From Alteromonas abrolhosensis (GTDB lineage Bacteria; Pseudomonadota; Gammaproteobacteria; Enterobacterales; Alteromonadaceae): a DNA stretch of 64,000 nt. The first letter of the stretch is position 1; each line of letters opens with the position of its first letter. The position numbers and the translations under genes were made by a program. Of this stretch, positions 41,617 through 61,836 are shown piece by piece. The stretch spans positions 1,915 to 65,914 of the forward strand of contig NZ_MEJH01000006.1 in NCBI RefSeq assembly GCF_001953635.1, in the 5' to 3' direction. The notes beneath the pieces were generated by a model that was not told the DNA's origin, searched no databases, and saw nothing but the letters and a program-made list of their open reading frames with translations.

Positions 41617-41693
41617 CCGCCCTTAGCTCAGCTGGATAGAGCGCGGCCCTCCGGAGGCCGAGGTCAGAGGTTCGAATCCTCTAGGGCGGGCCA
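41617..41693 (+). tRNA. tRNA-Arg (anticodon CCG)
   Basis: 77-nt cloverleaf. Acceptor 'CCGCCCT' pairs with 'AGGGCGG', D-stem 'GCTC/GAGC', anticodon stem 'CGGCC/GGCCG' around loop 'CTCCGGA', T-arm 'AGAGG-TTCGAAT-CCTCT', and encoded CCA. The loop gives anticodon CCG. tRNA genes are common phage and island integration sites, and a defence island follows downstream. Confidence 0.97.
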
Positions 41694-42495: not shown

Positions 42496-42536
42496 GCGCT
42501 CCGGAGTCAGAGGTTCGAACCCTGTCGGGTCTACCA
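42496..42536 (+). pseudogene. tRNA-Arg 3'-end fragment (candidate decayed attachment site)
   Basis: 'ctccgga' then 'gtcagaggttcgaa' match the tRNA-Arg at 41617-41693 exactly, with its 7-nt 'ggccgag' missing between. The acceptor-side sequence ends 'tctacca', with CCA. The 5' half is absent. It cannot fold into a tRNA. A partial tRNA 3' end beside an island is what integrase-mediated insertions leave. Confidence 0.7.
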
Positions 42537-45383: not shown

Positions 45384-45398
45384 GTCTGTATTCTCCCT

Positions 45399-47234
45399 CT
45401 ATGGCCAGAAGCTGGTAAATCCGCTTGTTAGCTTTTGCTTCATCAACTCAATCTTTCTTTTAGAGCGGCATGCAATGTACTCTTTCGATTCTCGCCATAG
45501 ATCAGGACGAACATTATCCCCACTCCATATATCGCAGAGTAAGGTGCTTAACACGTCTTCCAGAGAATCCAGTATATCCCTTGCTTTGTCTGCATCACCT
45601 TCAACTCTTGGGAGTAGTTTCATCATTAGGAAGTCGTCCCAGACAGCTTGCAGTTTGGCTTTGTCAGCCACGTCCCCGTCAAATGACTCCACTGTAAGTA
45701 ACAATTCATTCAGGGCGCGGAATGCAAGTTCAAAAGGCGTTCCTTTCAGTTTTTCATTAACGGCTTTAAGAAAAGAGCGGCTTTCTTTTGCAGCGGCTGT
45801 CGCAGCATTTGAATGTGAAGACAACGGAAAACTAAGCTTCACTGGATATTTCCTTTTAGCCTCTTCATCATCAAAAAAAGCATCAAAATCATTTGGAAAG
45901 AACTCATTAAAATCAAAGCTGATTGCACGATCGATAACCTTGCGGGAAAATCCGTGAGTTGTCTCATCCATATTAACAGTTCCAGCCACAATTAAATTGA
46001 AAGGAATAGGCAACCCTGCTTCCAGAAACAATTCCCACAGCGCAGTATATTCAGCCGCATCCATACCCAGCTCTTTTTTTAGTTTTTCGCCACCCACGCT
46101 CAACTTTCCGTTGTCGAGTAGGGCATCGCAGGAATAACTAAACAAACCATTCTCTTTATGCCATTTTCGAGTTTCTAAAACCGAAAGGTAATCTGAGAAG
46201 TACTGTTCTACTGGCGCAAGATTCATCTCGTCTAAGCACAACCAGTGGGCACGAACTCGGGTCAGAGCATCCTGTTCGCCGGAAACATAAAACGATTTAA
46301 TTCCATCCTGTTCGTAAGTTTCCAATTCAAAGCCGTTATCAACGAGTTCTTTCCAAGCAGAAGCTATAAACTTAAGCACTTCTGTTGAAGAATATTCGGA
46401 ATCGCCAGTTTTGGTAAGGCGAGTTTCGTATCCAAGAAGATCACTTGGCTCATGCCAGTCAGGCCTGACGGAAACCAATTTGTAAGCTCCATGCTTTGCT
46501 TGTTCGCGGACAAACCGGGTTTTACCAGTGCCGGATATGCCTGCTAGCAGAACGAAGGGTTTAGGGAGGTGGGTGAAACTAATATCTTCATCAGGCTGTT
46601 CATGTTTGACTGATTTTTCGACAAGATAGGCATCTCGTAAACTTTGATAAACTTGGGGATGCTTGCATAGGTCATACACAAGTCTTCCGAAGATACTGGA
46701 GGATGCATCTGGTAAATTTATCTCTTTAAGTATCATTGAGCCGAAGCAATCAGTGGAGCCTCTTGGCTTACCTTGATCACTGATAAATTTTTTCGCCCCT
46801 AATCTGTAGGTATTGTCATCCTTATCAATGAATCTAGCGAAAAGCTCTTTATCTTCATTAGATTGGAAATGCCGAGAAGCATTGGTGCTGGAGTTTAGGT
46901 TCTGTAAAACATGGGGGTAATTGCCTAGGATTAATTTTGGAGTTGAGCGCAACTTATCGTAAATTTCAAAATATTTAAAAATCTCGATGGCCAGCTCATA
47001 CATTTCTACGGCATATATAAAATACTGATTCGGAATCAACGCATAATTAGCAGATTTGCCCACTGTTTCCTTATCCGTAATAGCGTATGAAGTATATCTG
47101 TCAAAATCATATCCGATAGCTCTGAAACTGGGCGTCAAAATAGAGATCAACTTGGGAGATAACTTATGGTCAGACAGATCTTTCTTTTTCAAAAATGGTT
47201 TAGTTGTGCTGAAATCCGATAAACGTTTTAACAT
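45399..47234 (-). CDS. McrB-like AAA+ NTPase (restriction motor)
   Basis: 611 residues. After an N-terminal region of ~225 residues without a recognised DNA-binding domain come Walker A 'LLAGISGTGKTRFVREQA' (~231), Walker B 'WLCLDEMNLAPVEQYFSDYL' (~333) and 'AGTVNMDETTHGFSRKVIDR' (~416). The last is at the position of the McrB 'NTxD' signature that gives GTP preference; here it is NMDE. It should form a hexamer that drives the McrC-like nuclease. 12 bp after dcm. Confidence 0.87.
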   Translation of the reverse strand: MLKRLSDFSTTKPFLKKKDLSDHKLSPKLISILTPSFRAIGYDFDRYTSYAITDKETVGKSANYALIPNQYFIYAVEMYELAIEIFKYFEIYDKLRSTPKLILGNYPHVLQNLNSSTNASRHFQSNEDKELFARFIDKDDNTYRLGAKKFISDQGKPRGSTDCFGSMILKEINLPDASSSIFGRLVYDLCKHPQVYQSLRDAYLVEKSVKHEQPDEDISFTHLPKPFVLLAGISGTGKTRFVREQAKHGAYKLVSVRPDWHEPSDLLGYETRLTKTGDSEYSSTEVLKFIASAWKELVDNGFELETYEQDGIKSFYVSGEQDALTRVRAHWLCLDEMNLAPVEQYFSDYLSVLETRKWHKENGLFSYSCDALLDNGKLSVGGEKLKKELGMDAAEYTALWELFLEAGLPIPFNLIVAGTVNMDETTHGFSRKVIDRAISFDFNEFFPNDFDAFFDDEEAKRKYPVKLSFPLSSHSNAATAAAKESRSFLKAVNEKLKGTPFELAFRALNELLLTVESFDGDVADKAKLQAVWDDFLMMKLLPRVEGDADKARDILDSLEDVLSTLLCDIWSGDNVRPDLWRESKEYIACRSKRKIELMKQKLTSGFTSFWP

Positions 47235-47246
47235 TGTAATCCTTTA

Positions 47247-48497
47247 CTACAGTACTTTGGTGATTTGCTTCGCTATTGCATTGATAACATTCACTGTAAC
47301 ACTGTTTCCAAATTGCTTATATGACTGAACCGTGGATGGGTTTAATTTAAACTCATCTGGAAATCCCTGTAATCGCGCAGCTTCTCTGGGACTCAGTTTT
47401 CTTGGATTTTTGCCCAGCTGCTCGATAAGAACTTCACTTCCGTCTTTGTAATATCTGGCAGATATAGTATTAGTATACGGTGACTCTGCCGTAACAAGAC
47501 CATATCCGAAACCTTTACCATTTAGCTTATTCTGAACTTTACGCCTTTGATGACCTGCCCATAGTCGGTCAGAAATTGTGAGCTTTGGCTCCGGCTCTTG
47601 TTCAAGAATATCGCCGACTTTCATTGTTTGCTCAAATGGATCGGGGTAAGTAAAATTTTCAATCTCGCCATCACGCCATAGTACAATATAAATTCGCTGT
47701 CTGTTTTGAGGTATTCCATAATCTATAGACTTTAAAACCATTTCTTTAGCAAGTTTCTGTATTTCTTTCGTACTACCGTGTTCAATAACATCTTTAGGGA
47801 TGTTGCAGCTATACCCTATATTTGTCAGGGTATTAAGGATAACCTTTAGTGTGTGGCCTTTGTCATGACTAATTAAGCCTTTCACATTTTCTAGTAACGC
47901 AAATCTTGGCCTTTTAGTATCCAGAATGTTTGCTATATTGTGAAACAGAGTACCGCGCGTGTCTTCGATGCCTAGTTTCAGGCCTGCATGAGAAAAAGGT
48001 TGGCAAGGGAAGCCTGCCAGAAGTACGTCATGGTCAGGGATTTCATTTGCAGGAACGTGTGTTATGTCGCCAAACGGAACCTCGCCGTGATTGGCCTTAT
48101 AAGTTTGCTGAGCATGTTTATCAAACTCGGAGGAAAAAACGCAGGCTCCGCCGTGTTGCTGAAAGCCTAGTCTCACTCCCCCAATCCCGGCAAACAAGTC
48201 AATAAACCTGAACTCCGGATTCAGGGCTGGTTTGAGCGACAACTGGCTGAATACCACATCATAAAACTGTTCACGGGATTCATATAGCCGCTGTTCTTTG
48301 AGAAGAGATATCACAGAAGTTTTCAGTGCTTCTGGGCTGGAGATATCCGGATTGCAATATAGCTGGCTGTCAGTGGCAATTGCATGTAACCACTGGTCAA
48401 CGACTGCTTCGACATGGCTTTCCTGCGGAAAATGCGGAGTTGCCAGGGGGGTAAGCAGATCTTCTGCCTGATTAAGCGCGTCGTTTTTATTCGTCAT
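47247..48497 (-). CDS. dcm: DNA (cytosine-5) methyltransferase
   Basis: 416 residues. An N-terminal ~90-residue extension precedes motif I 'FIDLFAGIGGVRLGFQQHGG', catalytic motif IV 'GFPCQPFSHAG' (Cys ~163), motif VI 'LLENVKGL', motif VIII 'QNRQRIYIVLW', and motifs IX-X 'LSPREAARLQGFPDEF', 'QFGNSVTVNVINAIAKQ'. All are complete, so an active 5mC enzyme is expected. It heads dcm-mcrB-mcrC and is divergent from vsr. The target site is unknown. Confidence 0.95.
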   Translation of the reverse strand: MTNKNDALNQAEDLLTPLATPHFPQESHVEAVVDQWLHAIATDSQLYCNPDISSPEALKTSVISLLKEQRLYESREQFYDVVFSQLSLKPALNPEFRFIDLFAGIGGVRLGFQQHGGACVFSSEFDKHAQQTYKANHGEVPFGDITHVPANEIPDHDVLLAGFPCQPFSHAGLKLGIEDTRGTLFHNIANILDTKRPRFALLENVKGLISHDKGHTLKVILNTLTNIGYSCNIPKDVIEHGSTKEIQKLAKEMVLKSIDYGIPQNRQRIYIVLWRDGEIENFTYPDPFEQTMKVGDILEQEPEPKLTISDRLWAGHQRRKVQNKLNGKGFGYGLVTAESPYTNTISARYYKDGSEVLIEQLGKNPRKLSPREAARLQGFPDEFKLNPSTVQSYKQFGNSVTVNVINAIAKQITKVL

Positions 48498-48819: not shown

Positions 48820-49296
48820 GTGCCCAGAGTGACTGATATACATTCCAAAGCAATCCGGTCAAAAAACATGAGTGCGATCCGCGGTTCTAATACCACACCC
48901 GAACTCACTGTTCGCCGGTCACTACATGCTATGGCATTCCGGTTCCGGCTACACTGTAAAAAATTGCCGGGTAAACCGGATATTGTTCTGCCCCGCTACA
49001 AAGCCGTCATATTTGTGAACGGATGCTTCTGGCACAAGCATGACTGTGATGTATTCAGGTTACCTGCTACCCGCAGGGAGTGGTGGAACAGGAAGCTGAC
49101 AGCAAACAGGCTGAGAGATGAAGCTGTGCAGGATAACCTGCGAGAGTTAGGCTGGCGGGTAATGGTTGTATGGGAATGTGGCTTGCAAGGGAGGAAACGC
49201 ATTCCGTCTGATGAAGTGAATAGCTTTCTCCGGAAATGGATCCGAGAAGCACGGAGCAGTTATGCAGAAATACCTGCTCCAGCTTTTTCTGAATGA
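48820..49296 (+). CDS. vsr: Very short patch repair (Vsr) endonuclease
   Basis: 158 residues from a GTG start. It shows 'NMSAIRGSNTTPELTVRRSL' with the metal-binding region, 'LPGKPDIVLPRYKAVIFVNG' with the catalytic Asp, 'CFWHKHDCD' with zinc ligands, and 'GWRVMVVWECGL'. Vsr nicks at T:G mismatches left by deamination of 5mC, so it normally travels with a Dcm-type methyltransferase, here divergently encoded. It converges with the RelE-UvrD gene, whose stop is 4 bp away. Upstream spacing gives 'cagggagt' near the start. Confidence 0.95.
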   Translation: MPRVTDIHSKAIRSKNMSAIRGSNTTPELTVRRSLHAMAFRFRLHCKKLPGKPDIVLPRYKAVIFVNGCFWHKHDCDVFRLPATRREWWNRKLTANRLRDEAVQDNLRELGWRVMVVWECGLQGRKRIPSDEVNSFLRKWIREARSSYAEIPAPAFSE

Positions 49297-49300: not shown

Positions 49301-51448
49301 TTATTGTTGAGTAATAAGCGCTGACAATTCACCGTAACCGCTGATAAGTAGTCTTACTATCGCCCGCGTGGCGGCCACGTGAAGAAGCGCACGTTCTCTG
49401 ACAAGCCGCTCTTTTTCTGAAAATTCAAAACTGTAGTCAGCTGCCGGAATAATATTGGCATTGGCTGAAGCAATGAACAGAAATCTGAATTCCAGTCCCT
49501 TAACCCTGTGCATGGTAGACAGGCGAACTCCCTCCACGGAACGGTCATCCTGCCCTTTTTTCAGGACGACTGTCGTAATACCACGGGCTTTCAGGGCTGT
49601 GGCCAGTTTGTCTCTTACTGCCGTTGTTCTGGCTACAATACAAATATCCGAATCCCGTTCACCTGATGAACACAGCTCACCAAGTGTTTCTGCAATCCAG
49701 TCCTGCTCCTCTGCCTCTGTAGTAAACTGTTTCAGTACAGGATCATTACCGTGTGTCAGTGAATAGTAATCACTGCCGGAATCAAGCTGTCCGTCCAGGT
49801 CGTCAATCTCTAGTCCCTGCAGCAGCTCTTGTGCGAAGAGTTTAGTTTCGTGAGTCGTTCTGTAATTAATTTTAAGTTTTCTTCCCCGGCCCTTAATATC
49901 GATGCCGGAATGACCAATAACAATCCGGTCTCCGTAAATCCGCTGGTGGGCGTCACCAACCATAAGGATATTGTTATCTGCATCGGGTACCAGCGCATTT
50001 ATGAGTCTGAGATGAGGCAGGCTGAAATCCTGTATTTCATCGACAATGACAGACCGGTACAGCAGCGATTCTGCTTTTTGCAGCATTTCCTCAATGTCAA
50101 AAACAGACTCAGGGTAGTACCTGTATCTTTTGAACTCAGAGTGCTTTCTGAAAGCTTCAAATATCTCCCAGCAGTTTAAACGCTCTTTCCGCGTCAGTCG
50201 CTTACCACGGCCGTACCGTGAAACGCTCAGATAAGCTTCACGGGTTGTGATCTGATTATTCACAACAACTTTCAGAAATTCTGTTTCGAGAAACTGTATT
50301 GATGGTGCTGGTTTTATTCCGGTACTTTTAATCGCCTTATTCCAGAAAAACTCTGAATTTGAATTACCGGGGTAAAGCGGGCTGAACGGATATCTACCGG
50401 ACCTGAGGAAGTTGGCTATCCACTTATCGATATGGATAACCTCAATTCTGCTGAACTCGTCAGCACTGCAAAGCGATTTAAGAGCAGTGGAAATATCAGC
50501 CGCGAGATTGGCGTTGAAGGTTGAAAACAGGATTTTTTCACCCGGCTGTAACGTATTCGCGGCCAGCCAGCGCGCTCGGTGCATCGCGACAACCGTTTTC
50601 CCGGTTCCCGCACCACCAAGAATTCTTACTGGTCCGTTCCAGTTCCGTGTAACCAGCTTTCTCTGTGCAGGATGCAGGAAGGTGCGCCACAGCTCCAGAG
50701 GCTTATCGAGCATGTCTCTGAGCTCGTCTTCGCCATCAATCACACGGAATCCGGAAAGCGAGCGCCCTCTGGTCAGTGCAGCATCGATATCACCTGTATC
50801 GTAAACCGGCTCGTCCTGTTCAGAATAGATATCCTCAATACTCTGCCAAGGCTCACCTTCCATATACAGCTCCAGAGCTTCTGCAACTTCCTGAGGGAGT
50901 TTGTCAAACAGAGCGGTAATTTCTCCACGCGTTCCGGCTGAAAGTAGAACACCGGTATAGTCATCCGGTGTACCGATCCTGAGGAGCTGTTCAGTTTCAA
51001 GTCCCAAGGTATAAGGTACTTCAGCAGCAGTAACTGTTTCGTCCGCTTGGCTTTCAGAGCCGTAAGTACCCTGATTCACATGATAAGCACTGTCATCAGA
51101 ATCAGTGTGACTGAAAGACTCATAGATTTGAATCATACCGGTGTAGGCATTTACCAGACATTTTTTGCGTCGTGCCCAGGCATAAGCGCTGTCATGGTTA
51201 TTAACATGCACAAGAAGAAAATTATTTCCTTTTTCTGGTTTCAGCACAATGCCGCGATGATTCTGATCGATTCTGACGGATCTGTAGCCCGGATGTGCGG
51301 CATCATTAATTTTTTCGTAGTTAATTCCCGGAGAGTCCGGGTTATCCGTAAACTTAAGAACAAATTTAACAAAACCAGCCTGTGCTCTGCCCGAAAGCCG
51401 ATCGATTGCCCTCATACAGTCTTTTGAAACAGCCAGACTACATTTCAC
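49301..51448 (-). CDS. RelE-like domain fused to UvrD-like SF1 helicase
   Basis: 715 residues. Residues ~1-100 ('CMRAIDRLSGRAQAGFVKFV', 'YRSVRIDQNHRGIVLKPEKG', 'LLVHVNNHDSAYAWARRK') resemble the RelE/ParE toxin fold. After a linker is an SF1 helicase: Walker A 'RILGGAGTGKTVVAMHRARW' (~278), 'VIVDEIQDFSLPHL' (~469), 'MVGDAHQRIYGDRIV', and 'VRLSTMHRVKGLEFRFLFIA'. Last gene of the five-gene drmA-like operon, 3 bp after its upstream neighbour. The RelE-like part may bind RNA, DNA or the motor; toxicity is unproven. Typical residues cannot be checked by eye. Confidence 0.85.
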   Translation of the reverse strand: MKCSLAVSKDCMRAIDRLSGRAQAGFVKFVLKFTDNPDSPGINYEKINDAAHPGYRSVRIDQNHRGIVLKPEKGNNFLLVHVNNHDSAYAWARRKKCLVNAYTGMIQIYESFSHTDSDDSAYHVNQGTYGSESQADETVTAAEVPYTLGLETEQLLRIGTPDDYTGVLLSAGTRGEITALFDKLPQEVAEALELYMEGEPWQSIEDIYSEQDEPVYDTGDIDAALTRGRSLSGFRVIDGEDELRDMLDKPLELWRTFLHPAQRKLVTRNWNGPVRILGGAGTGKTVVAMHRARWLAANTLQPGEKILFSTFNANLAADISTALKSLCSADEFSRIEVIHIDKWIANFLRSGRYPFSPLYPGNSNSEFFWNKAIKSTGIKPAPSIQFLETEFLKVVVNNQITTREAYLSVSRYGRGKRLTRKERLNCWEIFEAFRKHSEFKRYRYYPESVFDIEEMLQKAESLLYRSVIVDEIQDFSLPHLRLINALVPDADNNILMVGDAHQRIYGDRIVIGHSGIDIKGRGRKLKINYRTTHETKLFAQELLQGLEIDDLDGQLDSGSDYYSLTHGNDPVLKQFTTEAEEQDWIAETLGELCSSGERDSDICIVARTTAVRDKLATALKARGITTVVLKKGQDDRSVEGVRLSTMHRVKGLEFRFLFIASANANIIPAADYSFEFSEKERLVRERALLHVAATRAIVRLLISGYGELSALITQQ

Positions 51449-51451
51449 TGC

Positions 51452-52864
51452 TTATACTTCCATATAATATTTGCACTTTTTAAGGTGAAGGTTCAGTGCA
51501 TTGGTTACCGGGAATATGTCTGCGCTCAGAATACCGAGAATCTCACTTGGCTTTGCGTCAGCAGAATATGTGAATTTAAGGACAAACGAATTATCAATAA
51601 CCTCAAACCGGCTGCCGCCAGGTAAACAGTGCTGGTTACTGATTGCCGCTTTCGCTAATGAAGGAGAGAATTTTTTACTGCCTTCACTCGCTATATCGTT
51701 AATCAGAACGAGGTATGCACTGTTGGTTTTGCCGAGAACTAATTCTCCGCTGAAACCTTTCTTGAGATTCAGATCGCGTACTTTGTAGTATTTGCGTTCG
51801 TCGCTGGTTTCTGCAGTGAAAAACTGGATCAACGGCTCACCGGTTATACCGAGAGACATTTGCTGATCGTTTCTCTCAGGTTTTTCCTCAACATGCTGAG
51901 GCAAGGAAGCAGGCACAAAACCTGAGAGGCGATTGTAGATTTCAGCAGCGATATTTCTGAGGCTGTTGACCGCATCCGGTCCGGGGCGCAGACGATCCTG
52001 ATGGTCCAGACGACTGTAGCCATAGCGAAAAATCGCCAGTTTCTGAGCAAGCTCTGTAACCAGTGTGCCGGTTTCCAGCGTTGTATCCTGCTTTATTGCG
52101 CGAAGGGCATTCTCGTCAGGATTCAGAAGCAGCAGTAAAAATGCTTTTTCAACCAGGTATTCGCCGTCGCTGAAATCCGGGATGTCTGTTGCGCCCGACT
52201 CGAGTGATGCAAAGGCCGATGCTATATAGTTACCAGACTCCGGGTGAAGCTGCGAAAGCTCAGTGATAATATCTGCCGCATTCCAGCCGGCCTCCTTATC
52301 ATACTTTATACAAAGGCTAATCAGGTCGCAGAGTAAGTCTGTATTGCCATACCGGCTGAAATATACATCAGCGAGTGCTTCCAGAGGGTTAATGGAGGAG
52401 CCGGTCAGTTGTGATGAAAATTTTTCCGCAGAACCTTTTAACGCAGCGTGAAACAGAAAACCTCGTACTGCATCTGTCTGACGGAGGATTTCACCAGGCT
52501 TCGAGTCCGCTGGTTCATCAGTTTCAGTTTCGCCTTGTAGCCATTCTTCAGCCAATACCCCGAAGGTAAACTCGCCAAAGTCATAATTAGACAGAGACGT
52601 GGCTGTGAGCTTGTTTATGACAGCTTCACTGGTCGCAAAAATCTTCTCTGCCAGCGAAATGGACAGGGCGGCGTTTTCCACCGCTGGTGCTGATAACTGT
52701 ATAACCAGCAGCGACCCGGTAAGCCTGACGTTTTTTAGCTGCTGTTCCGAAAAACAGGTCTGCCCGTTTACACTGACTAGCAGGTCTGGCGTTAGCAAAT
52801 CGTAAACCAGCGATACCCTTTTAAAGGCCTTGCTGGGCATAATGATAAATGTGGGTGTTTGCAT
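51452..52864 (-). CDS. Unrecognised protein of the drmA-drmB-like operon
   Basis: 470 residues, no family recognised. The N-terminal ~80 residues look beta-rich. A long helical middle follows, with repeated leucine- and alanine-rich segments ('LISLCIKYDKEAGWNAADII', 'AFLLLLLNPDENALRAI'), as in helical-repeat scaffolds. The C-terminal ~130 residues look mixed alpha/beta ('FFTAETSDERKYYKVRDLNL', 'GKTNSAYLVLINDI'). No signal peptide, membrane helix, P-loop or nuclease motif was seen. It lies 3 bp from genes on either side, so it is a coupled, probably structural or specificity component of the system. Confidence 0.75.
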   Translation of the reverse strand: MQTPTFIIMPSKAFKRVSLVYDLLTPDLLVSVNGQTCFSEQQLKNVRLTGSLLVIQLSAPAVENAALSISLAEKIFATSEAVINKLTATSLSNYDFGEFTFGVLAEEWLQGETETDEPADSKPGEILRQTDAVRGFLFHAALKGSAEKFSSQLTGSSINPLEALADVYFSRYGNTDLLCDLISLCIKYDKEAGWNAADIITELSQLHPESGNYIASAFASLESGATDIPDFSDGEYLVEKAFLLLLLNPDENALRAIKQDTTLETGTLVTELAQKLAIFRYGYSRLDHQDRLRPGPDAVNSLRNIAAEIYNRLSGFVPASLPQHVEEKPERNDQQMSLGITGEPLIQFFTAETSDERKYYKVRDLNLKKGFSGELVLGKTNSAYLVLINDIASEGSKKFSPSLAKAAISNQHCLPGGSRFEVIDNSFVLKFTYSADAKPSEILGILSADIFPVTNALNLHLKKCKYYMEV

Positions 52865-52867
52865 TAA

Positions 52868-54238
52868 CTATTCCCGGCTGGATATTAATTCGAGCAACTC
52901 CGGCTCATTTACCGGCAGATATTTCATCGCGCCTGCATCAGACTTTGCAGGGGTCTCTGACATCATGATCAGTTCATTTCTTGCCCGCGAACACATTACA
53001 TACATGTTCATTTTAAAGGTGTCTGAATCTGTATCTTCTGCCTCATAATCCTGTAAGCAGGGGAGAAATACAACATCAAATTCAAGACCTTTGCAGCTCT
53101 GCCGGTTAAGAACGGTTACAACCCCCTGCCTGTCAAATATGAGACTGTCACTTGTACTGCGGTCATTACTGTCATAAGTCTGGACGGTATAATTTGTTAG
53201 CATTCCGGTCAGTAAACTGAAGAACTGCTCTCTGAGTTTATTGTCTGGTAGCACAACGCCGACTTCATGATTTCCCCGGAGCCTGAGATAGCGGGCGATG
53301 TATTCAACCTGCTGCTGCACGTTTGCATCGCAGACCAGTCTCGGTTTGTTCCCTTTTTTATCGGGTAAATCCGGTGTTCCGGATGGTAAGCCAGTATAGA
53401 ACTTGCGTGCCAGCAGAGCGATTGGCCGGGTATTCCTGAAATTCCGGCTTAATGTAAACTTTCTGTCTTCGCCGATATTCAGCAAATCAGCAATCTGCGT
53501 TGTGGTTGAATTCTCTTCGCCCAGCCGCTGGTTATCATCAGCAAGTACTGTAATGGCTGAGTCACTTTCAGAAACACGTGACGCGTATTTAAGAAATTTG
53601 TAGGTGTCATTGCAGAAGTCCTGCCCCTCATCAATGATCAGGTGTCCCCAGCCTTTTTGTTTTTCCGGCTCTGCATCGGTGTACAGGTCGATGAGCCTGT
53701 CCCAGTCAGGCTTAAACTTTCGTATTTCCGGCGCATCATACGTAGCCTTATTTACTCTGGTTGTCGGGGTTCCGTCCCTTGGATCAGGTAACCACGGTGC
53801 AAAGACTTCGGGCGCCCTGTTTATTACTGCCTGAGTTGCAGTCCATGAACGCGCATTTTTATCCCATCTTGCCCCCTTTTCTCTTACTTCAATACGTCTG
53901 TCATACGGGGTGGTCAGATAGATGAGCTCCGCGCTTTCTTCATCCTGGTTTTCAATCTGCAGATTTCTCCACCAGTTATAGAACCAGGAATGAAATGTCC
54001 TGCAGCTCACATTCCGCGAGTCAGCACCGACATTCTGAGCAAATCTCTTCAGCACCCGGTTGTACATAATAACGTCAACTTTTTTGTTTTTCTTTGCGAG
54101 CAACATGGCTCTCAGGAATGCGATAACGGTTTTTCCTGTACCCGGCGGGCCGGTAACCAGTACGCGACCATCCAGCGGAGCGTCTTCGAAAATGTCCTGC
54201 TGTTCATCGCTTATATCGCGGGCGTTCGGCATTCTCAT
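52868..54238 (-). CDS. UvrD-like SF1 helicase with an inserted DUF5710-like segment
   Basis: 456 residues. Walker A 'VLVTGPPGTGKTVIAFLRA' (~27-45), 'LIIDEGQDFCNDTYKF' (~206), a 'LADDNQRLGEENSTTTQ' motif III, 'LSRNFRNTRPIALLAR', and late 'VTVLNRQSCKGLEFDVVFLP'. Between the first motifs, residues ~106-135 ('IYLTTPYDRRIEVREKGARW', then 'DKNARSWTA') match the small DUF5710 domain pattern (LxVPYxE...ALGARWD...W). The gene overlaps drmB by 4 bp. It is short for UvrD, so accessory subdomains are reduced. Role as motor in the DISARM-like complex is inferred. Confidence 0.82.
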   Translation of the reverse strand: MRMPNARDISDEQQDIFEDAPLDGRVLVTGPPGTGKTVIAFLRAMLLAKKNKKVDVIMYNRVLKRFAQNVGADSRNVSCRTFHSWFYNWWRNLQIENQDEESAELIYLTTPYDRRIEVREKGARWDKNARSWTATQAVINRAPEVFAPWLPDPRDGTPTTRVNKATYDAPEIRKFKPDWDRLIDLYTDAEPEKQKGWGHLIIDEGQDFCNDTYKFLKYASRVSESDSAITVLADDNQRLGEENSTTTQIADLLNIGEDRKFTLSRNFRNTRPIALLARKFYTGLPSGTPDLPDKKGNKPRLVCDANVQQQVEYIARYLRLRGNHEVGVVLPDNKLREQFFSLLTGMLTNYTVQTYDSNDRSTSDSLIFDRQGVVTVLNRQSCKGLEFDVVFLPCLQDYEAEDTDSDTFKMNMYVMCSRARNELIMMSETPAKSDAGAMKYLPVNEPELLELISSRE

Positions 54239-56034
54239 TTAACGTCCTCCTGAGTTGCGGCGACCAGGCTGAGCAGTCCTTCCAGTCCCTCATCGTTGCC
54301 GGTGAGCAGTGCTCTGTCCAGCAGCAGGTTGTTATACTCACAGCCTGTCTCCGAAATCAGTGAACAGGAATGGCAGGCCGCTTTGTTCATTTCCATCACG
54401 CCCTGAGTTTCTGCCTCAGAACATACCGGATCATTAGAACACCATTGCGCGGTTTCAACAGCTGATTCAATAGCTGCATAAAGACGATGATATTCGCCCT
54501 GCTGAACCAGGCCTCCCAGACTGCCCTCAGAGTCGCCGTCTGCGGTGTAGATCATGATGCCCGCCTGATCTTCGTCAAACGCATAAATACGTTCGCGCAG
54601 AGAGCTGGCAGAGTAGCCGCTTTCAAAAGTGAGCTGACGAATAAGAATGTGCGCAAAAGTATGCAGAGCTATAAATTTAGCTGACGGCTCCGGCAGATAA
54701 AGGCTGTTCAGGGATGCATGCTTGGCCTTTATATTTTCCAGTCTTCTGGTGAGCTGGCCGTGGTTGCGGTCTTCCCAGTCGCTGATTTGCGTACTGCTGA
54801 ACTCGATGAAAATGCCTTCCCCGAATACTTCAGTGGCAGGCAGCCATTTCCTCTCATCTCTGGTAGTCGTTGCGGCAATAATATTACCGTCCGGCTTTAT
54901 CCGTTCAAAACCACAGAAAGCACGTACTTCCCTTAGTTTATCAATCAGTACAACTCGCTTTATTAATTTTCGTAGTTCTGATGGTGAACCGGAAGGCTGT
55001 TGCTGCACCCGTGCCTTAAACAGAGGCCACGAGAAAGAAGCGGGGTCCTCAGAGGTCAGGATCTGCCATTCAGCCTTTCTGATATCTTCATCCCTGGGTA
55101 TTTTAAATTCTCTTTTTTCGGTGTTTTTCCCGCGGATAGCCTTGAGTACGGATTCCGTATCAGTGCCTAGTGTTTCGGCGATCTCTAAGGCTATGGCTTC
55201 CGCTCGCCCCGCCTTCTTTCTTCTTTCCGCGTCCAGCAAGTCCTCGTATTCACTATTCTGCTTTATTTTTTCAATAAGCGGATCTGTCTCAGAGCAGGAA
55301 CCGACCGGAATATCCAGCGCAGATTTTATGATGCCGTAATAGAGGTTGCTGGCGCCTCTCTGTAACACCCGAAGCGTTTCATTGCAGGAAGTGAGGGTTT
55401 CCCTGAATTCATAAGGTTGCTTGCCAAGACAGGAGCCGGGCACGCTGCCAGGTGCCATGATGGAACCAAGAGACTGTGAACTGCCACAGTCGGGATTTCT
55501 GCAGGTTACTTTAAGGGCATCTAGGCCACTGCCTTCACCCGATTTGCTTTCAAAATAAAGTTGGGCGCGGGAGTCACTGCCTTCCGTACATGTGCCGCCG
55601 GACTTTTTATGCGCCCATTTGTCCCACGGGATATCCTGAAGGTGACCGTGGTTACAGGCAGCAACAAACCGCATCGGTACCAGGGTTCGGTCTTTACAGG
55701 CAGCGTTCTTACATACGGGAACGCCGTCAGCATTAACTGCTTCATCACTGGCTTTGCGGTATTCCAGCTTTCTGCAGCGTGAGCAGAAAAGCCAGGCAGG
55801 GAAGCGCGAAGCCCACAGCCCGTCGTGTGAATCTCTGACGACCGGAGGGGCTTTTTTGAGATGAAATACACCGGTGGCCTCGGTGAGCCTTTTCAATTCT
55901 ATCCGCTCCAGCTTAGAGGGCCACTGATCCGTTCCGTTCATGATCAGCGACTCTTCTCCGATATCCACAATGGCGCCCGGGCCGAAAGGGCTGATTAATT
56001 GTGATGTCCGGAAGGTACGACGGTTTCCGCTCAT
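54235..56034 (-). CDS. drmB: DrmB-like DUF1998 protein
   Basis: 599 residues. The N-terminal 'RTSQLISPFGPGAIVDIGEE' is typical of DrmB. It has zinc-ribbon cysteine pairs ('CSRCRKLEYRK', 'CKNAACKD', 'CRNPDCGS'). The C-terminal DUF1998 has 'ALHTFAHILIRQLTFESGYS' (~455), 'SLRERIYAF', 'IMIYTADGDSEGSLGGLV' and a cysteine cluster 'CSNDPVCSEAE', 'CHSCSLISETGCEYNN'. DrmB works with the DrmA helicase in DISARM. Its start overlaps the drmA stop by 4 bp. Symbol by family resemblance only. Confidence 0.88.
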   Translation of the reverse strand: MSGNRRTFRTSQLISPFGPGAIVDIGEESLIMNGTDQWPSKLERIELKRLTEATGVFHLKKAPPVVRDSHDGLWASRFPAWLFCSRCRKLEYRKASDEAVNADGVPVCKNAACKDRTLVPMRFVAACNHGHLQDIPWDKWAHKKSGGTCTEGSDSRAQLYFESKSGEGSGLDALKVTCRNPDCGSSQSLGSIMAPGSVPGSCLGKQPYEFRETLTSCNETLRVLQRGASNLYYGIIKSALDIPVGSCSETDPLIEKIKQNSEYEDLLDAERRKKAGRAEAIALEIAETLGTDTESVLKAIRGKNTEKREFKIPRDEDIRKAEWQILTSEDPASFSWPLFKARVQQQPSGSPSELRKLIKRVVLIDKLREVRAFCGFERIKPDGNIIAATTTRDERKWLPATEVFGEGIFIEFSSTQISDWEDRNHGQLTRRLENIKAKHASLNSLYLPEPSAKFIALHTFAHILIRQLTFESGYSASSLRERIYAFDEDQAGIMIYTADGDSEGSLGGLVQQGEYHRLYAAIESAVETAQWCSNDPVCSEAETQGVMEMNKAACHSCSLISETGCEYNNLLLDRALLTGNDEGLEGLLSLVAATQEDVK

Positions 56035-59000
56035 CTCTTTTCTCCTTTAACCTTAATTAATGTCTCACTATCCACGTTGCGCATGGAGTTCAGTGTGGCC
56101 CAGCCTTTGTCTTCACTTTTAGCATCAAAGCTCTTCATCAGCGGCTGGAACTGCTTGCCTGCTTTCCGGCTTTCATAGCGGTTAATATCGCCCGATTCGG
56201 CTTTGCCGTGCCATTCATCAATTAGGTTGTCCAGAAACAGAAAGATATCCTTCTGCTCTTTCCCGGTAAGGCCTTCCATTGCGTTTTGCATCCTTTCTTT
56301 AAGTGCATCGGTTACCCGTTTTATGTCCTCGTTATCCTTGCGGAAGTGCTTTGCGCTTCCGCTATCACGAAGGCCTGCCGCAGCCCGGATGGCAATGATG
56401 AGAGCAGCGTGCAGCGCCCGTTCCATTGCCGGCTCCGTCCACGGTGTCACGCTGGTGGCCTCAACATGCCGGTAAAGCGCCTGATGGTAGCTTCTGAAAG
56501 TCTCGTAGTGAGAAATGTCCCGCGGCTTATTTGGTGAATACAGCGTGACCACAAGACCGGGAGGATATTTGCTGCTCCGGCCAACCCGGCTTGATGCCTG
56601 AATATACTCAGCTGAGGATTTGGGTTGCCCGACCACGATCATCGTATTAAGTCGGCTGATGTCCACACCAACAGAAATCATATTGGTGCAGGGCAGTATG
56701 TCGACGGCTTCACCCGAACGCTGCGGTTTGGCAAGATTCTTAAGAAGCTCAGGAATTTTGGGCCCTTTTACGTTTGCACTCAGTTCCTCAACACGTGTAA
56801 TGTCACGCGCATCCTGTTCGTCTGTTGCTATAACCTTTATCCTTGCAGGAATGTCATCCCGCGCCAGGGTCATGGTTTTCCCCAGTTCCCGGCGGCTGTT
56901 GTGATAAACCGGCAGCGTCCAGTAACTGTCAAGTACAGTGTCCTGCATGCCCAGTGAAACGGGGGCCTGCAGAATTGCTGCTGCAGACTGCACCATGGAT
57001 GTCTGACCTGTATGCCCCGATGGCATTACGCCCAGATACATCCGGCCCGGCCCTGTTGTATCAGACTTTGAAAAGAATGAATCATCATCTTCAATGCCGG
57101 TGGGCGGGAATATGTTCACTTTTCTGCCAAACAGCCGGTTTACCTGGTAGGGGGCATTTCGGATGGTTGCTGTTGCGGCCAGTACTTTGGGCCGCTTACC
57201 GGCCATGCTGATGGCTGTATCGATGCCCGATTCATACACCGACGCAATGGTGCCCAGTGGCCCGGATATCAGATGCAGCTCGTCCTGAATGATCAGCGAC
57301 GGTGGTAACGTGTGTTCGGGGGCAATCAGATTGTGGGCTTCTGCAATCCAGGCGAGTTGTGCAAACTTGTCCGTGGTTGCGATCAGCAGCGTTGGTGGCT
57401 GGCTGTAAAGTTGTTCATCGATAACCGAAACGGGCAGAGATTCGTGAAAGTCACAGCCGCTGTCCGGACAGTAAAATTCAAATGAGGTCGACGTTGAACG
57501 AATACCATAATCTTCGTTGTTGTCTGAAAAGTACTGGGGGATCACAGGCTTGCTGCACCACGGACAGCTTCTGAGCTGAAACGGGTTGTCGGGCTCATTC
57601 TCATTCCGCAGCGTTTCAAACTGCTGAACTGCAGCTCTATATTTGTTAGGGGAAGTGTTGCTGCCTGCCCAGAACCCCAAGGTAATCTGTTCTTCGCCAA
57701 GAAGTTCGGGCTCCTCCTTTCTGAGTGATTCCAGCGCACAAATCAGCGTGCCGGCACGTTCAAACTGCTGTGATGTAAGCAGTCTCAGAGTATACCGCTT
57801 GATGACTGCTGTACCACCACCTCTGGTGCCGTGCAGTATACGACGGGAAATAATTTCCCAGGCCGCCACGGCAAGATAGGCTTCTGTTTTTCCGCCACCA
57901 GTGGGGAACCACAACAGGTCTGCTTCATCGTGTGATTCAGGGAGTTCCCCGTTTTCATCCGAGATCATCGATTCCAGCACTATCAGCTGATAAGCCAGCT
58001 GAAACGGCCTCCACCGGTATTCATCCTTAAACTGAGCAGCGCAGTAATCGGGAGTTATAAATAACCCGTCTGCGTCCCTGGATACTGAGGTTATTTTCTC
58101 ATCTGAATGAATCATCTGCATGAGCATGGCACGGTTGGCCATTCTGAATGCAAACATTGCATTCTTGTTCCGGCCCAGTTTCTCAATGCCGCTGAACAGT
58201 CTTTCTGACGCCTTTTTCAGCCGCGAAAAAATATTCGCCCGTGCGGTGTCATGCTGCTCTGGGAGGATCCTGTGTTCCAGTTCCTCAATCCAGTAACTGT
58301 AGCCGTTAGCCAGCGTTTCCAGCGAAATAATAACATCTTCATCAGTACTGTAAGCGGGAAAGGCAAGTTTGTGAAGATTCAGCACATCTGCGGATATTTC
58401 CCATTTCTCAAGATCCTCATCGCTGAAGTCTGCAGTAAGCGGCTGAATTTCGTAGGCTGGCAGGTGCTCGGAAAACAGAGTCTCAGGCGAGGCATTGCCC
58501 TGAGAAATCCAGTTTGCAGAAACACCGTGCCCCACAGCCCATGTCACACGGTTTCTGTAGATAAGGGAGAGCTCAGCATGCTCTTCGTCATTCCTGAATC
58601 TGGCAGAATCTGGATACTTGAGAACAGCGCCTTCCACGACGGATACTTTAATACCGGCTTGGAAAAGGCAATATCCCACTTCCAGCTTTTCTGTTCCAGT
58701 ATGACGGTTTGTTAGTGCAATAGTGACTATAAAATCATCGCCGCTTTTGCGTTTTTTAAGAATAAGTGCGGCGTTATCATCCCAGATTTTTTTTTCGACT
58801 TTACCGTATTCATTCAAAACATAAGTCTGGCAAAAGCTGAGAGGTTTTCTGCGCCATTCACTTGCCTGTCCAGCAGTATATTTGCCGGCACTCAGCTCTA
58901 TTTTGAGCGAAGTACCTTTTTTCACTGCGAATGAAAGCGCCATTGATGAAGGTTTGAAATCTGATTTGAGTGCATCCTCATCACTTTGTGAATCCTGCTC

Positions 59001-59168
59001 GTCATCAGTAATTTTTGTCGCTGCTACGGGGTAGAGTATTCCTGATAAATAGCGTTTTTGTGGCGAATCTTTGAGAAGTTCTGTCTCTGAACTATATGGG
59101 CCTGTAAGTTGCTTTCGGATAAAAGATAAAAGCTCGTTTCTTTGCGCATTGAAGTACGCTGTGTCCAT
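56031..59168 (-). CDS. drmA: DrmA-like SF2 helicase
   Basis: ~1045 residues, within the DrmA range. Motif I 'LLWFPTGGGKTEAYLAVA' (~420), a DEAD-type box 'LIIQDELHLISGPLGTIASV' (~628), 'AATATIRNAPYQVNRLF', and the C-terminal motifs 'NMISVGVDISRLNTMIVVGQ', 'EYIQASSRVGRSSKYPPGLV' and 'RDISHYETFRSYHQALYRHV'. These match DrmA, which in DISARM forms a complex with DrmB that senses DNA ends or 5' overhangs. The ATG at 59168 is preferred over a GTG at 59174, since 'aggga' is 9 nt upstream. First gene of the five-gene operon. Confidence 0.88.
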   Translation of the reverse strand: MDTAYFNAQRNELLSFIRKQLTGPYSSETELLKDSPQKRYLSGILYPVAATKITDDEQDSQSDEDALKSDFKPSSMALSFAVKKGTSLKIELSAGKYTAGQASEWRRKPLSFCQTYVLNEYGKVEKKIWDDNAALILKKRKSGDDFIVTIALTNRHTGTEKLEVGYCLFQAGIKVSVVEGAVLKYPDSARFRNDEEHAELSLIYRNRVTWAVGHGVSANWISQGNASPETLFSEHLPAYEIQPLTADFSDEDLEKWEISADVLNLHKLAFPAYSTDEDVIISLETLANGYSYWIEELEHRILPEQHDTARANIFSRLKKASERLFSGIEKLGRNKNAMFAFRMANRAMLMQMIHSDEKITSVSRDADGLFITPDYCAAQFKDEYRWRPFQLAYQLIVLESMISDENGELPESHDEADLLWFPTGGGKTEAYLAVAAWEIISRRILHGTRGGGTAVIKRYTLRLLTSQQFERAGTLICALESLRKEEPELLGEEQITLGFWAGSNTSPNKYRAAVQQFETLRNENEPDNPFQLRSCPWCSKPVIPQYFSDNNEDYGIRSTSTSFEFYCPDSGCDFHESLPVSVIDEQLYSQPPTLLIATTDKFAQLAWIAEAHNLIAPEHTLPPSLIIQDELHLISGPLGTIASVYESGIDTAISMAGKRPKVLAATATIRNAPYQVNRLFGRKVNIFPPTGIEDDDSFFSKSDTTGPGRMYLGVMPSGHTGQTSMVQSAAAILQAPVSLGMQDTVLDSYWTLPVYHNSRRELGKTMTLARDDIPARIKVIATDEQDARDITRVEELSANVKGPKIPELLKNLAKPQRSGEAVDILPCTNMISVGVDISRLNTMIVVGQPKSSAEYIQASSRVGRSSKYPPGLVVTLYSPNKPRDISHYETFRSYHQALYRHVEATSVTPWTEPAMERALHAALIIAIRAAAGLRDSGSAKHFRKDNEDIKRVTDALKERMQNAMEGLTGKEQKDIFLFLDNLIDEWHGKAESGDINRYESRKAGKQFQPLMKSFDAKSEDKGWATLNSMRNVDSETLIKVKGEKR

Positions 59169-59174
59169 TTGCAC

Positions 59175-59259: not shown

Positions 59260-61836
59260 TTAAAAAAATTCGCTGTCTGCTAAGAGTGTATTTCTTTCTA
59301 TATATTTATAAAAATAATCATCACCATCTTCAAACATTTGAATCCTTATCAACTCTATATCGCTGCTCTCTAGCTTGTCCCACAAAACAGCATCAAAGGC
59401 TAGTTTGTCTAAATCCTTGGCGTGGTACATAAAGCTTTTGCGCTCGAATTTTTCGAATGGGTTCTGAAGAATGCTTTTAGTTAGCCGACTTTTGTCATTT
59501 AAAAACTCTTCATTATTCAGAGGGCTGTTTGGTTTTTCAGATTTTCCGTATTTTGTCAGTAAGTCTTTATAAAATGACTGGTAATCATCTCTTAGCAATG
59601 TAAGTGATACTTCGCCAGTTTTATCTGCGTGCTTAAGCATTAATAGCAAAAAGATGATTTTGAATGAAAACGTATAATCTCGTTGCTCCAAAAACTCGAA
59701 AAAATCCTCCCTTCTCGTGGCTTCGCTACGAAGCTTCAGGTTTTTTTCTTCGCGTATCTCGTGAACTCTACTTTGTTTGTAATAGTTAAGCATTTTATTG
59801 CCAAACGGTAATTGCTTGTCAGGAACTACACTTAGGTTTTTTACCCATTTTTTTACTGTGCCCGTGGAAACAAATAGTTCTCTTGCAAGTTGTTCATCAT
59901 TTACATAATCACCGAATTCATCCTCGAAATTAAATAGCTTAATAGGTTTTAGATTTCTTACGGACTCATAAAGGTGATCAAGAACAATCTCTTCGCCTAC
60001 AGGTGCTGCGTTTGGGTTAAACACATCAGCGAAAGGTTTGTAATCAGTCAAATTGAATATGCTGTGTAAGCTCCAAGGTTGAAGTGCTGGCCCATAGCTA
60101 TCGACAACATCAACTACGTAAAGCGCTTCTTTTCCTGGGTGGTTTCGTGTACCCCTTCCCAACTGCTGCATGTATAGCACTTTGGACATGGTCGGTCTTG
60201 CCATTACGATAATTGAAGTATTGGGGGCATCCCAACCCTCATTTAACAAATCACATGCACATAAAAACCGTAGTTTTCCTTCTTTATATTTTTTTAGACC
60301 TTCTCGGCTGTTTGCCGATACAGCCTCCGCACTAATTTTGTTTTTGTTTAGAAGCGTAGCGAGTCTATTAGCGTGTCTTACATCTACGCAAAATATAACA
60401 CCTTGAAGTGAAGACAGAGATTGGCGGGTAGTGGTGTCTTCTTGGCCAAAGTATTTAGAAATAACATCAACTATCAGCTGATCTCGAGAAGGAATGATGA
60501 CGTCATTATTGAGGTCGCTTTTTACAAATTCTTTCCCATTAAATCTTACTTGTGAAAAATCAATATTACTCTCTAATCGAAAAGCGCGTATTGGTGGTAA
60601 GAGGTGTTGTTTTATAGCCTCTTCTAAGGTCATGTTTAGTCGGTATCGACCAAATATCTCAGCTAAGTCTTTTTGATCCAATCGTTTATCGGTTGCAGTG
60701 CAACCCAGAAGCGTTTTGGGTTTAAAGTGTTGTAGCACTCTTTTAAGACCTTGTGCAGGAGCATGATGTGCCTCGTCCACTACAATATAGTCAAAGTGGT
60801 CTGAAGGAAGAGACGAGAAATGCCGCTGTATGGCTTGCGTTGTTTGTACAATAACATCTGCTTTTAAATCGGTTATATCCGAAGACATATTCAGACAAGA
60901 GTTACGCTCAACAAATCGCGACTTTGTTTGGTCGCGAAGTTCCTTGAAAGGAACAATAACTAATCCCCTCTTTGCCAGCCCCAGTTTTCGCTGCCTATCG
61001 TGGTCAGCGATAAATACTTCTGTTTTGCCTGTGCCAGTCGGAAGTACCAATAAAAAAGTATCTTTTCCAGCCTCTCTACTATTTTGTATCTCAGATAGAG
61101 CGTCTTTTTGGTGTTTAAAAAGTGAAAAACTAATGTTTCGAAACTGACTTGCTGAGGGTTTTTCGCAGAACGATTCCGTGTTTCCAAAATAAAGCCGAAT
61201 TTGATCAGCAAACTTTTTTTCATCAGCCATTCCCGCATTTGACCAACGATATACTTTTATACCGTCTTTCATTAACGAGTTCTGCTTAAGTAGCTGGGAG
61301 AGGTATCGTTTTCTATCAATCACCAACGGGTGATGGAAAGCTTCGCCATTTAATTCAATTGCAATATCACCGTGTCGGGTTTTTAGCATGTAGTCTACAT
61401 AACGGCTTTTACCGCGTAGATCTATGTATTGATGTTCCCGTTCAAGTGCATAAAGATACCTAGAACCATAAACCTGTTCAAATAGGCTTTCGAAGTTGTA
61501 CTCAGGCCTTGTGGGATCTATTTCGTTTATGTGCCTGTCAGTACCATATTGTTGAAAATCATATTCATCGTCTGATTCACCTAAAACGGTGTCAACAAGC
61601 CACTTATTGTCAGGTTCTTGATCATCAATGAATCTATATAGCTTGGAAAATTTATGCATAAGCGCATTTTGCCAACCAGTATATTCATGATATGGGAATT
61701 TAGGTTTGTCAGTGCCATATAACCGTGTATCTAGAATAATGCCAGTTTCTTGCGCGGTGTCACTGTATAGATCTGAAGTATATTGTGAATCGATTAGTTG
61801 AAATCCTTTGCTTTCTAATAACTTCGATAAACTCAT
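59260..61836 (-). CDS. PD-(D/E)XK (Vsr/DUF559-like) nuclease domain fused to an SF2 helicase
   Basis: 858 residues. Residues ~130-205 read like a Vsr/DUF559-type nuclease: 'YVDYMLKTRHGDIAIELNGE' (~145-165), 'HHPLVIDRKRYLSQLLKQN', 'GIKVYRWS'. The helicase core has Walker A 'LVLPTGTGKTEVFIADHDRQ' (~264), 'YIVVDEAHHAPAQGL' (~352), 'LGCTATDKRLDQKDL', 'FLCACDLLNEGWDAPN' and 'YMQQLGRGTRNHPGK' (~560). A C-terminal region without a recognised domain starts with an HTH-like 'QLARELFVSTGTVKKWVKNL'. It resembles stand-alone defence helicase-nucleases. It is separated from drmA by 86 bp on the same strand and is lower in G+C, so it may be an independent gene. Confidence 0.82.
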   Translation of the reverse strand: MSLSKLLESKGFQLIDSQYTSDLYSDTAQETGIILDTRLYGTDKPKFPYHEYTGWQNALMHKFSKLYRFIDDQEPDNKWLVDTVLGESDDEYDFQQYGTDRHINEIDPTRPEYNFESLFEQVYGSRYLYALEREHQYIDLRGKSRYVDYMLKTRHGDIAIELNGEAFHHPLVIDRKRYLSQLLKQNSLMKDGIKVYRWSNAGMADEKKFADQIRLYFGNTESFCEKPSASQFRNISFSLFKHQKDALSEIQNSREAGKDTFLLVLPTGTGKTEVFIADHDRQRKLGLAKRGLVIVPFKELRDQTKSRFVERNSCLNMSSDITDLKADVIVQTTQAIQRHFSSLPSDHFDYIVVDEAHHAPAQGLKRVLQHFKPKTLLGCTATDKRLDQKDLAEIFGRYRLNMTLEEAIKQHLLPPIRAFRLESNIDFSQVRFNGKEFVKSDLNNDVIIPSRDQLIVDVISKYFGQEDTTTRQSLSSLQGVIFCVDVRHANRLATLLNKNKISAEAVSANSREGLKKYKEGKLRFLCACDLLNEGWDAPNTSIIVMARPTMSKVLYMQQLGRGTRNHPGKEALYVVDVVDSYGPALQPWSLHSIFNLTDYKPFADVFNPNAAPVGEEIVLDHLYESVRNLKPIKLFNFEDEFGDYVNDEQLARELFVSTGTVKKWVKNLSVVPDKQLPFGNKMLNYYKQSRVHEIREEKNLKLRSEATRREDFFEFLEQRDYTFSFKIIFLLLMLKHADKTGEVSLTLLRDDYQSFYKDLLTKYGKSEKPNSPLNNEEFLNDKSRLTKSILQNPFEKFERKSFMYHAKDLDKLAFDAVLWDKLESSDIELIRIQMFEDGDDYFYKYIERNTLLADSEFF

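Follow-up and report, generated by a model that had tools for sequence, protein, structure and literature searches.

The stretch of Alteromonas abrolhosensis DNA analysed here (64,000 nucleotides of contig NZ_MEJH01000006.1, positions 1,915 to 65,914; hereafter the window) carries an operon of five genes, four of which, encoding DrmA, DrmB, a superfamily 1 (SF1) helicase and a protein that we call X, form a conserved unit; gene 5, which encodes a second helicase, lies outside the conserved set. We favour, with moderate confidence, the reading that these four genes constitute the core of a DISARM-related anti-phage system, which also includes a neighbouring C5-cytosine DNA methyltransferase and is gated by methylation. 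The sequence itself shows the gene content, the coupling and conserved order of the genes, the intact motor motifs, a methyltransferase linkage, a conserved valine in DrmA and a swapped fifth gene; the mode of action and the adaptor role of X are inferred.

All five open reading frames (ORFs) were found in the ORF list on the minus strand, with 4-bp overlaps between DrmA and DrmB and between DrmB and the SF1 gene, and 3-bp gaps between SF1 and X and between X and gene 5, as the initial annotation had described. That annotation did not mention the C5 methyltransferase and Vsr genes beside the operon, the first of which probably belongs to it. The genes are as follows:

56031..59174, minus strand: DrmA, superfamily 2 (YprA-family) helicase, 1047 residues, GTG start (PADLOC, NCBIfam, 7s9v_A)
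54235..56034, minus strand: DrmB, DUF1998/MZB protein, 599 residues (NCBIfam, PADLOC, Pfam, 7s9v_B)
52868..54238, minus strand: gene 3, SF1 helicase with DUF5710 insert, 456 residues (Pfam AAA_19, DUF5710)
51452..52864, minus strand: gene 4, X, 470 residues (predicted structure with DarT-like, ARH3/DraG-like and secretion-chaperone-like parts)
49301..51448, minus strand: gene 5, ArmD-like helicase, putatively RelE-like/UvrD, 715 residues (Pfam UvrD_C, identity to ArmD-like proteins)
48820..49296, plus strand: Vsr mismatch endonuclease, 158 residues (NCBIfam vsr, Pfam Vsr)
47247..48497, minus strand: C5-cytosine DNA methyltransferase, Dcm/DrmMII-like, 416 residues (Pfam DNA_methylase, PADLOC)

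The DrmA-DrmB core that had been proposed for the operon is borne out by profile searches. DrmA matches the PADLOC DrmA family at 4.4e-200 and the Serratia DrmA structure 7s9v_A at E 3e-230 (A5 profile), with intact motifs (Walker A PTGGGKTE at 424, IIQDELH at 628 and ASSRVGR at 860); its score of 855.5 bits against NCBIfam DISARM_DrmAS is under the cut-off of 950, which assigns it to DISARM at family level only. DrmB, the DUF1998 protein, is encoded by a separate gene next to DrmA; it exceeds the cut-off of NCBIfam DrmB_fam (459.5 bits over 240) and matches PADLOC DrmB (4.9e-83), Pfam MZB (2.9e-9) and Serratia DrmB 7s9v_B (E 1.5e-104, A6 profile). In Serratia DrmAB, V1296 touches a base and 5-methylcytosine lowers the ATPase activity (PMC9142583). 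V1034 of the window DrmA aligns with this residue, and the equivalent position is Val in 76/76 SF1-type DrmA rows, a conservation in favour of DISARM-type sensing of methylation. The idea of a shortened trigger loop in DrmA was abandoned, since loop lengths in the 76 SF1-type rows (median 43, range 8-55) overlap those in the 12 references (31-65). Gene 3 passes the Pfam cut-off for AAA_19 and, as had been noticed initially, carries a DUF5710-like segment (29.7 bits against a cut-off of 26.5). Its helicase motifs are intact (GPPGTGKT, DEGQD, KGLE), and its identity to three relatives of the gammaproteobacterial type is 47-51%. The DUF5710 insert is specific, in the alignment, to SF1 relatives of this type, and is longer, apparently doubled, in loci L003 and L008.

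The order DrmA-DrmB-SF1-X recurs far from Alteromonas. Eighty loci, the best of at least 188 relatives from at least 588 stretches of a genome collection searched with a profile of six SF1 proteins, contained DrmA in 71 cases, DrmB in 66, SF1 in 74 and X in 45. In 38/80 the four genes are strictly adjacent on one strand, and the record labels of these 38 span Pseudomonadota, Actinomycetota, Chlorobiota, Bacteroidota, Planctomycetota, Acidobacteriota, Verrucomicrobiota and Thermodesulfobacteriota, with a Parcubacteria metagenome-assembled genome. A Deinococcota case, a Deinococcus plasmid, shows the same order, as do a Photobacterium plasmid with an X 24.5% identical to that of the window (tblastn of plasmids), a P. 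damselae plasmid and an IMG/VR contig. Within the class, X was found in 1 of 369 genomes, the window's own; a DNA search of E. coli genomes and an SF1 search of a phage collection gave no matches. Most of the 34 X proteins behind the model that served for counting X come from these 80 loci, so that X matches there arise by construction. A profile from only five sequences had already found distant members directly after SF1, and the idea that X has no homologue outside close relatives was rejected on that ground. Conserved synteny in distant genomes, to which the initial annotation had looked, thus exists for DrmA-DrmB-SF1-X; it does not extend to gene 5, the exact five-gene order was not found elsewhere, and the five genes were rejected as one conserved unit because gene 5 is variable.

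A tree of 88 DrmA rows, computed by a quick method, rooted at its midpoint and with flags on several long branches, splits the 76 SF1-type rows from 12 plasmid reference rows, which include loci with annotated drmC or drmD, with a Shimodaira-Hasegawa-like approximate likelihood ratio test (SH-aLRT) support of 97. Median identities are 40% for DrmA, 36% for DrmB, 34% for SF1 and 15% for X. The distances of the four proteins over 43 loci are correlated at r 0.89-0.97 (largest of 999 permutations, 0.21), which indicates joint inheritance, not contact, since neighbouring genes that descend together show this correlation as well. In locus L003 (1-21485), the four genes and a C5 methyltransferase lie within a P22-like phage region, in which terminase and portal are followed by DrmA-DrmB-SF1-X, the methyltransferase on the other strand, and then holin, endolysin and major head genes. 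No NERD- or ArmD-type gene was seen in the L003 stretch, and this cassette of four genes and a methyltransferase is a candidate for the smallest set.

Other arrangements were also observed. DrmA-DrmB-SF1 without X occurs in Streptomyces (L006, L053, L066, L070, L073, L075, L076, L079, L082, L083 and others), where a gene of ~1,000-1,300 residues lies immediately upstream in several loci; in L006 it carries a sigma-factor annotation. In five loci (L050, L055, L056, L060 and L085) the gene after SF1 matches X weakly (34-73 bits) and the stretch contains no DrmA or DrmB match, possibly a further, DrmAB-free arrangement. Veronia nyctiphanis has two operon copies on one contig (L016 and L017), with DrmA identical in the tree, and DrmB and X split into several ORF pieces.

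The C5 methyltransferase matches Pfam DNA_methylase (8.8e-97) and PADLOC DrmMII (1.3e-100), its best PADLOC family being MTase_II (2.4e-117). It is the sole PF00145 match in its genome, and any PF00145 match is present in 31/59 genomes of the order; the other methyltransferase near the operon is a small Methyltransf_11-type protein. A homologue occurs in the fetched stretch of 29 of the 44 loci having DrmA, SF1 and X, in 1/25 loci in which DrmA and SF1 occur without X (these are mostly from Streptomyces and closely related, hence a weak control for the linkage) and in 4/12 plasmid references. The corresponding figures for Vsr, which matches NCBIfam vsr above the cut-off (3.4e-43) and Pfam Vsr (2.9e-30), are 16/44, 1/25 and 4/12. 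In the window the convergent Vsr gene separates the methyltransferase from the operon. From this linkage, the C5 methyltransferase is probably part of the system, as its self-marking enzyme, and Vsr would be the companion of the methyltransferase.

Gene 5 was initially described as a RelE-like/UvrD fusion. Its UvrD part is recognised by Pfam (UvrD_C, 5.9e-22) and has intact motifs (GGAGTGKT at 278, DEIQD at 470); the first 105 residues match no Pfam family, and the best PDB sequence for the RelE-like N-terminus (E 0.17) is unrelated. The RelE-like label comes instead from 41% identity, over 692-697 aligned residues, to ArmD-like proteins of E. coli and Aulosira plasmids, together with the description of ArmD in PMC12458937. 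Relatives of gene 5 on plasmids number 50 records at E<=1e-20. In 3/3 inspected, the relative is last in its row, after a helicase of 2,108-2,116 residues that itself follows a large gene, annotated as a DNA methyltransferase in two of the three; the long helicase of the Microvirga row carries DEAD and MZB domains, and a BrxHII gene lies outside the stretches seen of the three rows. Gene 5 is called ArmD-like because these rows fit ARMADA II as described in PMC12458937.

Of the two SF1 helicases in the partner set of the initial annotation, gene 5 is not conserved, the usual second SF1 gene being a NERD-helicase. In 30 of the 38 adjacent loci the gene immediately upstream of DrmA encodes another SF1 helicase, which in four more loci follows X; 29 of these 30 genes belong to the NERD-helicase type, nine by profile assignment alone. 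The NERD nuclease domain was found in 24 of 25 second-helicase proteins scanned, and its E, D, E and K residues in 24/25. The exception, L032, is the only other locus of the kind with a RelE-like/UvrD gene in the operon, placed at the upstream end, in the NERD-helicase slot; its N-terminus is weakly similar to the RelE-like domain of the window (29%) and reaches Pfam ParE-like at 0.046, below the cut-off. In the window there is no NERD-helicase, and the ArmD-type helicase follows X, in the slot that holds the NERD-helicase in four other loci. Nine DrmA rows, the window's among them, form a group (support 100) whose loci lack the NERD-helicase; the group is nested among loci having it, which suggests that the NERD-helicase was lost in the window's line. 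The other loci of this group have no full-length match to gene 5.

It could be argued that the ArmD-type gene is itself the effector, and that RNA cleavage by its RelE-like domain, once phage DNA has been sensed by the helicases, causes arrest or abortive infection. The identity of gene 5 to ArmD-like proteins and the L032 gene in the NERD-helicase slot are consistent with this, and mutation of the ArmD Walker A or deletion of the gene abolishes ARMADA II defence (PMC12458937). However, ARMADA II defence is reported in the same paper to be direct and non-abortive, and the RelE-like domain of the window is without a Pfam match. Moreover, eight of the 44 DrmA, SF1 and X loci lack a NERD-type helicase, and none of these eight matches gene 5 over its full length, so that the core can exist without gene 5. 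We therefore consider gene 5 unlikely to be the effector.

No motif had been visible in X, and none of Pfam (E<=0.1), PADLOC (0.01) or NCBIfam (0.1) gives a match; in predicted structures, however, a fold like that of DarT and, more tentatively, one like that of ARH3 are recognisable. The window model has a mean predicted local distance difference test score (pLDDT) of 73.9, with residues 1-310 mostly well predicted. Residues ~1-110 (VIA) align with DarT 7omx (Z 7.3, root-mean-square deviation (rmsd) 2.8, 103 aligned residues), which is insufficient taken alone, and residues ~125-316 (VIA) with ARH3 2g4k (Z 8.0, rmsd 4.0, 173 aligned); the C-terminus (~380-467) is predicted to be secretion-chaperone-like. 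As a replicate we modelled the X of L024, which shows 15-17% identity in the larger alignments; the pLDDT is 87.7. This model matches DarT 7omw (Z 10.8, rmsd 3.4, 140 aligned) and ARH3 7akr (Z 10.7, rmsd 3.6, 181 aligned), ARH entries filling the matches to the latter region, and its residues 415-553 match type III secretion chaperones and YbjN-like proteins (Z up to 13.0). Foldseek relates it to DarT at E 2.5e-3 and probability 1.00. The ARH-like part is helical, and Z below about 13 can reflect a common helical arrangement.

The first 180 residues of L024 X score 27.5 bits against 2CompART and pass the Pfam cut-off of 27, whereas L028 X fails with 15.6; X of ten further loci gave 0/10 at E<=1, and over all 33 scanned X proteins two match at E<=0.1, above the cut-off in L024 only. 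The X profile compared with 17 DarT proteins gives P 0.0008-0.0014, against 0.08-0.75 for four other, unrelated profiles. With 30 ARH proteins P is 0.13-0.15, which is not significant, the alignment being in register with the DTDT stretch; an earlier profile round gave P 0.0056 for DarT and 0.098-0.13 for ARH. The X profile against PDB sequences reached at best E 0.045, for an unrelated protein. With Thermus DarT as the reference for the catalytic residues H13, T15, N19 and E160, a sequence alignment of 34 X proteins has His at H13 in 0/34, Thr at T15 in 16/34 and Asn at N19 in 19/34, with no conserved Glu around the E160 position. The window X has Met and Ala at the T15 and N19 positions and none of the four residues. 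The ARH metal motif DTDT is absent in 34/34; several Actinomycetota X proteins retain G-x-D-D/E-x-T. Since most of the catalytic residues have been lost, and all of them in the window, X is read as a pseudoenzyme adaptor, probably derived from DarT-like and ARH-like enzymes, with an N-terminal part modelled as an ADP-ribosyltransferase fold of the DarT kind.

Alternatively, X might be an active ADP-ribosyltransferase that, like DarT, modifies bases on phage single strands exposed by DrmAB and SF1, an activity that the ARH-like part reverses or limits. The structural scores of L024 X, its 2CompART match and the P values with DarT would agree with such an enzyme, and an Azospirillum plasmid (L095, 3019-13254) carries UvrD-DrmA-DrmB-NERD-helicase followed by a stand-alone DarT (PF14487, 3e-11), apparently another DISARM-like arrangement with an ADP-ribosyltransferase. 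However, X profiles gave no match to this single DarT in hhalign, and the substitutions at the catalytic positions, together with the missing DTDT motif, make an active X quite improbable.

In the system that we favour, with DrmA-DrmB-SF1-X and the C5 methyltransferase, the methyltransferase would mark the host chromosome, and DrmAB would load, through its base-sensing valine, on unmethylated single-stranded or 5'-overhang DNA of the incoming or replicating phage. The exposed strand would be bound by the SF1 helicase and by X, the latter in the role of a non-catalytic adaptor or sensor, and the exchangeable SF1 motor, usually with a NERD nuclease and here the ArmD-type RelE-like helicase, may then block or process the phage DNA. 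Several observations weigh against this proposal. The loci were picked by SF1 similarity, so their frequencies are conditional and silent on DrmB neighbourhoods at large. The valine is also present in 11/12 reference DISARM DrmA rows, and marks the DrmA family rather than the SF1-X subtype. The methyltransferase is missing in 15 of the 44 fetched loci and is often on the opposite strand. The domain assignments of X derive mainly from predicted structures, and Foldseek alone gave no match to the window model at E<=0.001. Finally, none of the window core genes encodes a recognised nuclease, so that the initial statement that the five genes lack an obvious nuclease and leave the effector unclear still holds.

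A degraded or incomplete class 2 DISARM, having lost DrmE and DrmC and relying on host nucleases with the other genes as bystanders, would explain the presence of DrmA, DrmB and a DrmMII-like C5 methyltransferase, and DrmC has been reported to be dispensable for DISARM activity (PMC9142583). Yet an SF1 gene and X in the same adjacent order in 38/80 loci, with distances that track those of DrmA, are unexpected of bystanders, and the 76-row DrmA group does not include the reference DISARM loci; we find this explanation quite improbable. That the operon serves DNA repair, in relation to MrfA/MrfB, is very improbable, for although YprA-family helicases include repair enzymes (PMC12458937) and Vsr is a mismatch-repair enzyme, the distribution is patchy (X in 1/369 genomes of the class), the loci occur on plasmids and in a phage region, other restriction genes are adjacent, and DrmA groups with DISARM-type proteins.

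Two further features flank the genes described above:

43158-47234, minus strand: McrB-like AAA gene (PADLOC PDC-M26A 1.8e-31) and McrC-like DUF2357-PDDEXK_7 gene
59260-61836, minus strand: ResIII-type helicase, 85 bp upstream of DrmA

The McrB-like/McrC-like pair adjoins the C5 methyltransferase, downstream of the operon. In Chlorobium (L027), a NERD-DrmA-DrmB-SF1-X operon is adjoined by McrB-like and McrC-like homologues, a methyltransferase and Vsr; in Rhizobium (L097) the McrB-like/McrC-like homologues are weaker. The ResIII gene lacks homologues in 98 related loci (5,664 ORFs), which places it outside the core. Its first 230 residues resemble a PD-(D/E)xK nuclease by eye, a likeness unsupported by Pfam or the PDB (best sequence match 0.41). 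A tRNA-Arg gene lies at 41617-41693, and a 14-bp copy of its 3' half at 42506, 0.8 kb downstream, the two flanking one ORF without a Pfam match; the copy is perhaps the trace of an integrated element, and no attachment-site repeats beyond it were found. Promoter-like sites (29 versus 22.8 expected) and terminator-like sites (11 versus 16.0 expected) were uninformative.

How DISARM stops a phage after DrmAB has sensed its DNA is unsolved, and the present family, a sister to DISARM, bears on that question. With SF1 and X fixed and the second helicase swapped between the NERD and ArmD types, it offers a natural experiment on the sensing and acting parts, and X ties helicase-based defence to ADP-ribosylation protein families. 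More tentatively, the loci might represent an immune family that spans phyla, in which X, as an essential part of the core, would read or write a mark of the ADP-ribose type, or else hold single-stranded DNA, thereby connecting methylation-sensing DrmAB with interchangeable effector helicases shared with ARMADA. If this were true, proteins of the ADP-ribosylation type and helicases of the DISARM type would be parts of one immune mechanism.

DISARM class 2 comprises drmE, drmMII, drmA, drmB and drmC. As in that class, DrmA and DrmB are split in the window and a DrmMII-like C5 methyltransferase is nearby, and DrmAB is homologous to the solved Serratia DrmAB over nearly the full length. Unlike in class 2, there is no match to DrmC or DrmE, a fixed SF1 and X being present instead, and DrmA is below the NCBIfam DISARM cut-off and outside the reference DISARM rows in the tree. 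DrmC, DrmD and DrmE are absent among the NCBIfam matches listed for the ten proteins at 43-62 kb (for the ResIII gene, the best 25 of 30), in agreement with the initial annotation, and neither DrmC nor phospholipase D (PLD) is among the Pfam, PADLOC and NCBIfam matches listed for the window proteins scanned (for three of nine proteins, the best 25 in PADLOC). The four PADLOC matches of 33 X proteins include no Drm family, and DrmE is not in the best 25 of 57 PADLOC families for the 25 NERD-helicases. A canonical DISARM class 1 or 2 was therefore rejected.

ARMADA type II shares with the window operon the homologue of ArmD, a RelE-GajB-like helicase, which is the fifth gene here. It differs in having an undivided YprA helicase with a C-terminal Vsr domain, whereas here DrmA and DrmB are separate, without a Vsr match, and the YprA-family protein is of the DISARM kind; the operon also has no BrxHII-like or PglX-like gene, and identity with ARMADA II was rejected because these are missing. 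The N-terminal part of X is modelled with a fold like that of DarT in DarTG; unlike DarT, X has no catalytic Glu, and the window X also lacks the NAD-ribose-binding Thr and Asn, while its partner domain is modelled more like ARH3 than like the DarG macrodomain and X is encoded in a helicase operon. The McrB-like and McrC-like genes downstream recall a DISARM-like cassette beside McrBC operons (PMC11090510), although the SWI2/SNF2 and PglX in the figure abbreviations of that paper are absent here; its text gives no further description of the cassette. The accessible text of PMC12458937, supplements apart, contains no account of X, of an operon with SF1 and X, or of any component resembling ADP-ribosylation enzymes; many DISARM-like classes are left uncharacterised in that paper, and the present operon very likely belongs to these, so this lineage may sit unnamed in its tree. 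Open-licence PMC papers, supplements apart, yielded no description of the operon and no link between DISARM and a DarT-like protein. By its core and probable mechanism, the system appears to be related to DISARM and to stand outside every named class, with DrmC, DrmD and DrmE missing and an SF1 helicase and X as fixed components.

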